Shown in pieces: positions 26,517 through 30,788 of a DNA stretch of 64,000 nt. This DNA is from Leishmania martiniquensis (Eukaryota; Euglenozoa; Kinetoplastea; Trypanosomatida; Trypanosomatidae). Location: assembly GCF_017916325.1 (NCBI RefSeq), contig NC_090170.1:1530001-1594000 (forward strand), written 5' to 3'. The notes beneath the pieces are model-generated. The model saw only the letters and a program-made list of their open reading frames with translations. It did no database searches and had not been told where the DNA came from. Position 1 is the first letter of the stretch; each line of letters starts with the position of its first letter. A program made the translations under genes and the position numbers.

Positions 26517-29500
26517 ATGAGCTTCAGCAACCCACTCGAGTCTCTGCTGCGGAGCATCATCCAAAGCGGTGGCCGCGGTGAGGGTGGGGTCGGAGGCGAC
26601 GGCAGCGGGCAGCCGACCATGGTCACCTTCAGCACGGACGACGCTTCCGGGATGCACCCGCTCTCCGTGCTGCACGCCATGGGGCCAAACTTGGTGTTCA
26701 GCCGTGGCCCAGGTGTCGGCGCGCTTGCGGATTCGAGTCGTCGCGGTGGTGACGCCTCAGCGGGGGCGGCAGACGCACATTCCTCCTCACCGGGCAGCGT
26801 GTACAGTGGAGGCGTGCCGCCCATGGTGTGGATACAGCGGGAGCAGCAGCGCATACCGCTTCAGTTCTCCGCCACCGGCAGCCCCAATCTGGACGTGACG
26901 CGGCTGCGTGAGGAGGGCAACGAAGCCTTCAAAGCAGGGCGCTACCATGAGGCGATTCGCTTCTACACCCAGGCAATCGAGTTGGACCCAGACTCGGAGT
27001 TCCTGTACACCAATCGCTCCTTCGCGTATTTCAACATCAAGGAGTTCGAGAAGTCCGCGGCCGACGCAGCGAAGGCGGTGGAGATCAACGCGAACTTCTT
27101 CAAGGGGCATTATCGACTGGGGCTCGCGCAGATGAGCTTGAACGACTTCGGCCGCGCCATGGAGAGCCTGCGCAAGGCCTGGGCGCTGGCACCCGATGCG
27201 AACAAAGAGCTCATTCGGGTAGCAATGGCCAAGTGCGAGTCGAAGATGGCACGAGCGCCGGCAACGCCGCTGCTGATGAGCCCAGGTGACAGCGCGTCCA
27301 TCTCCTACGCCGAGGGTAGAGGCGGAGCGTGCTCGTCATGGCCGGCGGCGCCGGCGCTCCTCACCGACGTGGCGTTTCAACACGGAGCCACGAAAGTGGA
27401 TCTCTGCGAGTTGGCAGCGGAGATTCAGCGCGCGGCGGCTGTTCGGGACCAGGCAGCGAAGTACACAGACACTTTCGATGCGCAGGAGGACATAGTTGAG
27501 TGCAGCAAGCGATCTGACAAGATTAGATCCCTCATGAGCATCGCGACCTCTAGCGAGCTCTCCACTCTCTCCAAGGAGGCTGACGAGAGGCAGTCGAAGC
27601 TGCGTCGTGCTGTGCGCGACCAGGACAGCAACGCCTATCACAAGGCGCGGTGTGACCGGGACGCTACACTCCACAAGCTGTGGGACACTGCTGCGCAGGC
27701 CGAAATGGCGATAGCGCAGCTTAAGAAAATCGCCAAGGAAGAGCAGCACTTTTTCAGTCGATTTGGTCCTGCTTCCAACCGCACGCCTTCCAGCGTTCCA
27801 GAGGAAGCGGCAAGTGAAGCAGTAGCGGCGGTGACGCCGACCCTCGCGGCTGAGTCGCCGCTGAACTCAGCGCCCGCTCCGCCAGAGGCAGTCTCGGCCG
27901 ATGCCGCCACCACTGCCGCACCTGCGGTGACCGATACCGGTGCTTCCCCAGTAAGCCCCGCACCATCCCCCGGGGCAGCGGCGCTGCACCAGCCGCCATC
28001 CACGCCGACGACGGACGCTAGCCGCTCTACTCAGGGCGCTGCGAGCGCCAGCTCTGAACTAGGCCAGCTGCTGCAACGCCGTGTCGAGATCAATGAGGCA
28101 GTTCGAAAGGCGCAGAAGTGCTTCGCCGCAACCGACGCGGCCGGGCAGGCGTTCTGGCACGCACTGAGGGCGGAGGCGGGGTCCATGAAAGAGGTGCGTT
28201 CGCTTCTCGCAGAGGCGATGGAGCTCGACGCACAGCTGGAGGCCCACGCGCGGCAGGTGGCACAAACTACGACGAAGGAGCTCTCGGATGTGCGGCTGCA
28301 GGCGTTGGACCAGATGAGCAGCATTGTCGAGCGTGTGAAGGCAGATAAAGAGGCTTTCGTCAAGACAATGCGCGAGGGCGACAGTTTGTTGGAGGAGGAG
28401 GCGAAGCTTGAGCAGCAACGCCTCTTGCATGAGCGCCAGCGTATTCAGCTGCAGGCCGAAATCGAATGGTTCAAGATTCGAGATGAGCCAGAAAATAAGA
28501 TCGAGTGTCTGCAGGTGCAGGTGAAGCGTCTGCACCAGCGTATCGCTGCCATTCATGAGAAGCAGAAGGGTGTGCAGACGCGCATCATGGAGCTGGTCGA
28601 GCGGGATCACCCTGAACTGGCGTGGAAGTCGATGGCGAACGGCTCACGAATTTTGCGGCTAGTGAAAGGCAGTGGACTCTGGCAAAACCTTTCCTTCTCA
28701 GACTTCCAGGTTGTGTCGACGTTGTCGTCCACAGTGAACAGCAAAGTGTACCACGCGCTGCGCCGCGGCGAGCACATTGCGGTGAAGGAGATCTCCATCG
28801 ATGACGATGCAGCGCGCCGGCGCTTCCAGCGTGAGGTGAACATCGTTTCCGCTTGCAACCACCCAAACATTATCCGTATCAAAGGCGTCTTCTTCGATGG
28901 TCCCTTCGCCTATATCCTCTTACCATATTACCACCGCGGCAGTCTGCGCGCACTGCTGTCAAAGCAGGAGCCAATGTCGTGGGTGGCAGTGCAGGATATG
29001 CTCCGTCAGCTCGCCAGCGGCGTCGCCTACCTGCACGAGCGTGGCATCGTCCACGCCGACCTGAAGCCGTCGAACGTACTCATCGCGGATGACGGGCGGC
29101 CAGTCATCTCCGACTTCGGCATCGCCAAGGACAACGGCGCCCTAGGGGTGGCTGACATGACGCTGACGACCACCTTGACGAGCACCAATGGTAGCTGTGG
29201 CAGCATCGTGGGCACGATGCAGTACATGGCGCCTGAGCAGCTATTGGGCGCTTCGGGCTCGCAGAAGGCGAAGTCTACCGGAATGTCAGACATGTGGGCG
29301 CTCGGTGTGACTATGCTAGAGGTGGCGCTGTACAACGCGTACTTCCATGATGCGTCGCTGGAAAAGCCAAGCCTGCCGCTGCTGCTTCCAGAGCAGCGGC
29401 GCATCGAGGTGCCAGCCAAGTCCGTGGGTGGTGACGAGAAGCTAGCCGAGGCCATTTCGTCAGTGCTCGTGGCCGACCCCGCGAGCCGGGCGACGGCCTA

Positions 29501-30788
29501 TGACCTTTTGGCGCACCCGTACTTCAGCTCGACTCTCAACTCCATCAACAGCAACCAAAACAGCAGTGCACTGGCGAAAAGTGACGAGCGCATCGACGCC
29601 GTTCGCTCGTACATCTACGCCGTCCGTCGCAGCCATCAACAGAAAGTGCTGGTGTCGGTGTCGCGCAATCAAATGGTGGAGTCCGTACGCGACATTTTTC
29701 AGCGCCTCGACAACGACGACCTGCTCTCTCCCATCATGGTTGTGTTCCAGGGCGAGGCCGGCATCGACGAGGGTGCTCTGACGACGGAGATGCTCAATCT
29801 CTTCTACGACCAGATGATTCTTGTGAAGAAGGCCCTCGTGTGCGCAGCTGCCGAGGACGCTGGCGCAGCATCGCCGCATTCTGCCAGCTCCCCTGTATCA
29901 TCTGGCACGGCAGCGAGCGCGGCAAATGAGCCTGGCATACGCTCGGCCCTCTTTTCTACCGTACCCTACCTTCCCGCTCCGGATGCGGATGGCATTGCGC
30001 CGGATTTGTTTGTGTTGCTCGGCAAGGTGCTTCTCAAGAGCGTTATCGAGAACCGACAGATTCCGCTGCAGCTGAGCTCTGCCGTGCTCAAGTTCTTCTC
30101 CGGTGCGGAGCCGTCGTTTGTCGACTTGGAAGAGTACGACGTGACTGTCGCAAACACACTGAAGCGGCTGCGCCTCCTCTCCGCCGCCGACCTCGAGGAC
30201 GCGGGGCTGGACTTTTCTCACTTTACCCCTGAGTTCTTGAAGGCTCAGACGGACGGTCGATACACAACGGACTCGCCCCTCACCCCCGAGAGCGTGAGCG
30301 ACTACATTGAACTTCGTGAGAAGTTCGACTTGGTGGAGCGCCGGCGCACGGCGCTGGAGGCGATGAAGAAAGGCTTCTTCTGCGAGCCGTCTCTCGAGCA
30401 TCACCTCAAGCTCCTCTCGCCGTCGGATTTGCTGCTACTTCTGTGCGGTCAGCTCCACGTCTCGGCGCAGGTCATCGTCGGCGCTTTAGAGTTCCAAGGC
30501 TTTGCCCGCACCTCCAACACACCGAAGTTCTTAAAGGAGGTGATACTGGACATGTCGCAAAATAATCTTCGGCGCTTCCTGCAGCTCTGCACGGCGACGG
30601 CGGCCGTGCCGGCAAACGGGGCCATGAAGAAGATCAAAGTGCTGCGCTGCGCCGACGAGACGCGGCTGCCGGTTGGCCACGGCTGCACAAATCAGCTGGA
30701 TCTCCCCGACTACAACGACAAGCAGATCATCAAAGAAAAGTTGGAGATTGCCTTGGCGCACGCTAGTGATGGCTTTCATGTCGTCTAA
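26517..30788 (+). CDS. TPR - coiled-coil - Ser/Thr protein kinase - HECT E3 ubiquitin ligase fusion protein
   Basis: This 1423-residue protein joins four modules in one frame. TPR repeats (about 126-235) start with REEGNEAFKAGRYHEA, typical of Hsp90/Hsp70-binding TPRs. Helical coiled-coil stretches (about 265-400 and 520-690) flank an Ala/Pro/Ser linker. A protein kinase domain (about 728-1010) has K757 in AVKEI, catalytic D848 in HADLKPSN, D866 in DFG, then MAPEQ and a DMWALG motif. Its glycine loop is degenerate and HRD is replaced by HAD. A HECT domain (about 1066-1423) begins with FQGEAGIDEGAL and has the C-lobe HGCTNQLDLP motif with likely catalytic Cys1390; it ends GFHVV, keeping the Phe four residues from the C-terminus that many HECT ligases need. 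Inference: phosphorylation and ubiquitin transfer are coupled, perhaps with TPR-chaperone recruitment. ATG 26517 is the first in frame after the main splice site. Confidence 0.85.
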   Translation: MSFSNPLESLLRSIIQSGGRGEGGVGGDGSGQPTMVTFSTDDASGMHPLSVLHAMGPNLVFSRGPGVGALADSSRRGGDASAGAADAHSSSPGSVYSGGVPPMVWIQREQQRIPLQFSATGSPNLDVTRLREEGNEAFKAGRYHEAIRFYTQAIELDPDSEFLYTNRSFAYFNIKEFEKSAADAAKAVEINANFFKGHYRLGLAQMSLNDFGRAMESLRKAWALAPDANKELIRVAMAKCESKMARAPATPLLMSPGDSASISYAEGRGGACSSWPAAPALLTDVAFQHGATKVDLCELAAEIQRAAAVRDQAAKYTDTFDAQEDIVECSKRSDKIRSLMSIATSSELSTLSKEADERQSKLRRAVRDQDSNAYHKARCDRDATLHKLWDTAAQAEMAIAQLKKIAKEEQHFFSRFGPASNRTPSSVPEEAASEAVAAVTPTLAAESPLNSAPAPPEAVSADAATTAAPAVTDTGASPVSPAPSPGAAALHQPPSTPTTDASRSTQGAASASSELGQLLQRRVEINEAVRKAQKCFAATDAAGQAFWHALRAEAGSMKEVRSLLAEAMELDAQLEAHARQVAQTTTKELSDVRLQALDQMSSIVERVKADKEAFVKTMREGDSLLEEEAKLEQQRLLHERQRIQLQAEIEWFKIRDEPENKIECLQVQVKRLHQRIAAIHEKQKGVQTRIMELVERDHPELAWKSMANGSRILRLVKGSGLWQNLSFSDFQVVSTLSSTVNSKVYHALRRGEHIAVKEISIDDDAARRRFQREVNIVSACNHPNIIRIKGVFFDGPFAYILLPYYHRGSLRALLSKQEPMSWVAVQDMLRQLASGVAYLHERGIVHADLKPSNVLIADDGRPVISDFGIAKDNGALGVADMTLTTTLTSTNGSCGSIVGTMQYMAPEQLLGASGSQKAKSTGMSDMWALGVTMLEVALYNAYFHDASLEKPSLPLLLPEQRRIEVPAKSVGGDEKLAEAISSVLVADPASRATAYDLLAHPYFSSTLNSINSNQNSSALAKSDERIDAVRSYIYAVRRSHQQKVLVSVSRNQMVESVRDIFQRLDNDDLLSPIMVVFQGEAGIDEGALTTEMLNLFYDQMILVKKALVCAAAEDAGAASPHSASSPVSSGTAASAANEPGIRSALFSTVPYLPAPDADGIAPDLFVLLGKVLLKSVIENRQIPLQLSSAVLKFFSGAEPSFVDLEEYDVTVANTLKRLRLLSAADLEDAGLDFSHFTPEFLKAQTDGRYTTDSPLTPESVSDYIELREKFDLVERRRTALEAMKKGFFCEPSLEHHLKLLSPSDLLLLLCGQLHVSAQVIVGALEFQGFARTSNTPKFLKEVILDMSQNNLRRFLQLCTATAAVPANGAMKKIKVLRCADETRLPVGHGCTNQLDLPDYNDKQIIKEKLEIALAHASDGFHVV

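Follow-up and report, generated by a model that had tools for sequence, protein, structure and literature searches.

The closest described system is LmjF35.4000 of Leishmania major. Parsons et al. (2005, PMC1266030) call this gene Leishmania-specific and describe it as combining three TPR motifs and a HECT domain with a unique kinase domain; Table 2 of that paper counts a single HECT-bearing kinase in L. major and none in T. brucei or T. cruzi. We analysed a stretch of 64,000 nucleotides from Leishmania martiniquensis, hereafter the window (NC_090170.1, positions 1,530,001 to 1,594,000; contig 35, 1.53-1.59 Mb, in a genome of 32.3 Mb and 41 contigs), in which one gene likewise encodes a protein with TPR, kinase and HECT domains. 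Two further systems allow useful comparisons. The HECT domain with its catalytic cysteine and -4 phenylalanine is common to this protein and the E6AP/UBE3A-type ligases, to which the Leishmania protein adds N-terminal TPR and kinase domains and about 35 N-lobe residues. CHIP/STUB1 also joins a clamp-type TPR domain to a ubiquitin ligase domain, whereas the Leishmania protein has HECT in place of the U-box, and a kinase in addition; no U-box occurs among the 20 Pfam families listed for the protein up to an expectation value (E) of 1.

We read the gene product as a HECT ligase that is linked to chaperones and carries an unusual, perhaps weak kinase, and give this reading a probability of about one half. 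One frame holds the three domains, the catalytic residues and a set of clamp-like residues (Table 1); that the protein binds chaperones and works as ligase and kinase, and in what order, is predicted from them. Most likely the N-terminal clamp-type TPR domain would bind the acidic C-terminal tails of Hsp70 and/or Hsp90, a docking that would bring the ligase to clients held by these chaperones. The HECT domain would load ubiquitin on Cys1390 and then hand it over to the chaperone-held clients. The kinase, with its catalytic residues kept and a degenerate ATP loop, would most likely phosphorylate clients or the ligase itself in the same complex, at a low rate.

Table 1. Features of the TPR-kinase-HECT gene, in window coordinates.
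Feature	Position	Strand	Basis and remarks
Coding sequence, TPR-kinase-HECT protein	26517..30788	+	1423 residues, ~154.6 kDa; open reading frame list, translation
TPR domain, residues ~130-240	26904..27236	+	Pfam; HOP alignment; clamp-type R131, N135, N166, K196, R200
Linker, mostly helical, residues ~280-720	27354..28676	+	Single-sequence model, low confidence; Ala/Pro-rich middle
Protein kinase domain, residues 727-1005	28695..29531	+	Pfam; 9gmp comparison; alignment
Glycine-rich loop position, residues 736-745	28722..28751	+	Glycine-less: S737, T739, S742
HAD, residues 846-848, replaces HRD	29052..29060	+	Catalytic Asp kept, Arg lost
DFG, residues 866-868	29112..29120	+	Translation
Short kinase-HECT linker, residues ~1006-1040 (HECT start estimated)	29532..29636	+	Alignments
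HECT domain, residues ~1041-1423 (start estimated)	29637..30785	+	Pfam; E6AP alignment
Catalytic Cys1390 codon	30684..30686	+	Translation; E6AP alignment
Phe1420, -4 phenylalanine	30774..30776	+	Translation
Pyrimidine tract, possible trans-splice acceptor region (inferred)	26130..26171	+	Longest upstream tract; AG 6 bases downstream

An earlier note on this DNA, made by a reader of the letters alone, had described a single uninterrupted frame encoding one polypeptide with TPR, kinase and HECT domains, and this description is borne out. From the ATG at 26517 the frame runs for 1423 codons without a stop; chance is excluded, because the longest stop-free run in 20 first-order Markov versions of the whole window is 399 codons. 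The start given in the list of open reading frames is a GTG at 26484; the nearest upstream in-frame stop is at 26439, with no ATG between it and 26517. The remaining five frames contain 20 to 48 stops each over the same interval. The profile searches proposed in the note place all three domains in this frame, with E of 1.2e-50 for HECT, 5.9e-45 for Pkinase (PF00069) and 4e-13 for TPR_2, and the residues it had named (K757, the DFG motif at D866, Cys1390 and the -4 Phe) lie where it put them.

The possibility of two separately expressed proteins, raised in the same note, is not supported. No stop interrupts the junction between kinase and HECT, coding periodicity continues across it, and it contains no long pyrimidine tract. 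In 18 windows of 100 codons that span codons 1-1375, the junction included, third-position GC stays within 0.63-0.83. The acceptor role of the tract upstream of the gene is one we presume from general kinetoplastid biology. Since no pyrimidine tract of 18 bases or more occurs between kinase and HECT, the sequence gives no hint of two messenger RNAs; a short tract at 30212-30230 is within the HECT coding part. The GC pattern and the missing junction tract fit a single messenger RNA.

The link to chaperones is suggested by the TPR domain. Sequence matches include the TPRs of HOP, PP5, SGTA and CHIP. The clamp positions of HOP TPR1 we take to be K8, N12, N43, K73 and R77; four of the five are identical here (N135, N166, K196 and R200), the equivalent of K8 being R131. 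With four positions as in HOP TPR1 and the fifth changed from lysine to arginine, docking to Hsp70 or Hsp90 is plausible, as the earlier note had suggested. Clamp TPRs that bind other ligands exist, and the arginine at the K8 position would also suit a TPR domain whose ligand is not an Hsp70/Hsp90 tail but, for example, a partner specific to trypanosomatids, in a ligase with one narrow substrate; the other four positions are those of HOP TPR1, however, and we regard this alternative as very improbable. Foldseek matches of a partly confident model are to TPRs of the CHIP, SGT and RPAP3 types, and add little as the root-mean-square deviation is approximately 16 Å.

A chain in PDB entry 8ye5 is identical to the TPR domain at 120 of 127 residues (window 26880-27260) and has the same five clamp residues. 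The title of this entry nevertheless concerns the reductive dehalogenase TmrC and a cell-free expression system. The chain probably came into that work as a contaminant, from a lysate of Leishmania tarentolae; if so, the TPR-kinase-HECT protein is made in Leishmania.

The Pfam HECT match (PF00632) covers residues 1161-1422 and begins at profile position 36. Upstream of it, the motif that opens the N-lobe, at residue 1075, can be aligned with E6AP, weakly if taken alone, and one stretch of the N-lobe exceeds that of E6AP by about 35 residues. As this longer stretch precedes the late start of the match, the N-lobe is probably whole, with an interruption. In the C-lobe, C1390 sits in an H-x-C motif that aligns on the H-x-C of E6AP, the best HECT match in the PDB, and the protein ends in F-H-V-V. 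A HECT profile search of the genome gave 15 places in 14 distinct frames, 12 of which reach the C-lobe end of the profile, the other two being short and matching over 65-68 profile positions. For L. mexicana, 14 HECT genes are reported, of which 12 have the catalytic cysteine and two are partial (PMC7647121). Among the matches listed, a kinase match shares the frame with HECT in just one of the 14 L. martiniquensis frames, the one described here.

The kinase domain is the unusual component. K757, E773, D848, N853, D866 and the APE motif are kept. The loop reads L-S-S-T-V-N-S-K-V-Y, with all three glycines of GxGxxG replaced, and the protein departs from a canonical RD kinase in having S737, T739 and S742 at the glycines and A847 at the HRD arginine. 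The glycine-less loop is not a sequencing error, because an identical loop is found in PDB entry 9gmp, a 285-residue chain containing the kinase domain only and entitled 'Map kinase kinase-like protein', which is identical at 250 of 280 kinase-domain residues (89%). The equivalents of K757, E773, D848, N853 and D866 are also kept in that chain, which has HGD where the L. martiniquensis protein has HAD.

To place the loop in context, we compared 91 kinase loci from this genome: the 30 best Pfam matches, 60 picked from a list of at least 136 kinase matches, and one further locus (L018). All except L018 were chosen for a match starting near the N-terminus, so that the set leans towards intact loops. 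The loop columns are readable in 89 loci, with three glycines in 66, two in 22, one in a single locus and none in 0. A smaller starting set, restricted to matches beginning near the N-terminus, likewise gave no case of total glycine loss (0 of 69). Twelve other matches start at profile position 7 or later without an N-terminal neighbour in frame. One of these was read and has three glycines, another was read partly (a row in L055, probably C27:1099845, with at least one glycine), and the ten unread are the likeliest to be divergent. Total glycine loss is accordingly found at no other readable kinase locus (0/89), ten late-starting ones being unread. A missing HRD arginine is no rarity here, since 10 of 92 readable rows lack it; the motif is HRD in 77, YRD in four, HGD in five, HCD in four, YND in one and HRA in one, with HAD in none.

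Such a kinase may be catalytically impaired and act instead as a scaffold that binds partners or senses nucleotides, in which case the protein would function solely as a chaperone-linked HECT ligase. The replacement of the loop glycines both in the window sequence and in 9gmp, the rarity of that state (no glycine-less locus among the 89 readable ones, the lowest being the locus with a single glycine) and the change of HRD to HAD here and HGD in 9gmp all favour this explanation. On the other side, the catalytic residues and APE are kept, and the set of 89 favours kinases whose N-terminus is complete. The examples in Figure 8 of Parsons et al., which may or may not include this kinase, are labelled predicted active (PMC1266030). 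On balance we think the scaffold explanation possible but doubtful. With the loop glycines and the HRD arginine lost, the kinase may be weak, and the usual RD-type control through the activation loop is unlikely.

The proximity of kinase and HECT raises a different question. The kinase ends near residue 1005 and the HECT opening motif lies at 1075. A short linker separates the two adjacent domains along the chain, and the kinase might autophosphorylate the HECT domain or the linker to switch ubiquitin transfer on or off in cis, the phosphorylation gating envisaged in the earlier note. No phosphosite or structural support for such gating was found, the model of the kinase-HECT half being uninformative, and the degenerate ATP loop also speaks against it; we judge it improbable. 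The linker between TPR and kinase is covered by a single-sequence structure model with a mean predicted local distance difference test score (pLDDT) of 53.9.

Returning to a chaperone-linked ligase with a weak kinase, several observations weigh against this interpretation. The equivalent of clamp residue K8 is an arginine. The model of the kinase-HECT half, with a pLDDT of 35.3, gives no help. The kinase activity may be weak or even absent, given the loss of the three loop glycines. A more elaborate version of the same idea, that the protein makes its own degrons, the TPR domain holding Hsp70/Hsp90 clients, the glycine-less kinase marking them and the HECT domain ubiquitinating them, all on one chain, we consider unlikely.

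The locus itself points to the identity of the gene. A PKA catalytic subunit is encoded at 32509-33627 on the forward strand (best E 1.1e-115 against PKA chains), and this is the next downstream frame of at least 250 residues. A large frame at 49493-53353, also on the forward strand, has an N-terminal kinase domain. Table 1 of PMC7902614 gives the L. mexicana numbers LmxM.34.4010 for PKAC1 and LmxM.34.4050 for the kinetochore kinase KKT3. By position the frame at 49493-53353 is probably KKT3. With a PKA neighbour (.4010) and a kinase frame at the place expected for KKT3 the locus fits LmjF35.4000, a number that suits a place before PKAC1, and the TPR-kinase-HECT gene is apparently LmjF35.4000 or its direct ortholog, an assignment made from the locus. 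Elsewhere in the window, on the same strand, the frame 2445-4619 contains an SP-RING (zf-MIZ) domain (E 5.7e-20) and is a possible SUMO ligase, and a DnaJ domain that matches 40 of the 63 positions of its profile (E 7.5e-16) occurs in the frame 45299-46498.

How much of this is new? The earlier note knew of no functional description of this architecture. The combination as such has been in print since 2005 (Parsons et al., PMC1266030), and a structure of an 89% identical kinase domain is deposited. Added here are the glycine-less loop, the HAD motif and the clamp-type character of the TPR domain; the part of Parsons et al. available to us makes no mention of the lost glycines or the clamp residues (PMC1266030). 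No functional study of the protein was found in literature searches, whose coverage mostly excludes subscription journals, and with the architecture already published the news value lies in the function.

Genetic data on Leishmania kinases and HECT ligases are available. Baker et al. (2021) count 17 kinases unique to the Leishmaniinae, only one of which had a mutant phenotype, and 34.4000 is absent from the main text and from its table of required kinases (PMC7902614). Burge et al. (2020) report null mutants for each of the 12 HECT genes that are complete in L. mexicana, HECT3 being targeted only in part (PMC7647121). Their hect12 mutant lost fitness both as promastigotes and as axenic amastigotes, and a fuller account was announced separately (PMC7647121). 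We suspect that HECT12 is the TPR-kinase-HECT gene, as the latter would sit in a kinase library. The gene is not named in the term-matched passages of PMC8066228, PMC7618733, PMC10420020, PMC4327156 and PMC7706067.

Whether the kinase is active can be tested, as 9gmp shows that a closely related domain can be produced and its structure determined. Leishmania is a parasite with little transcriptional control. If the kinase works, chaperone binding, phosphorylation and ubiquitin transfer would be coupled on one chain, a compact device for client triage. If it is inactive, the protein would show clearly that a kinase fold can be put to new use as a scaffold within a ligase.

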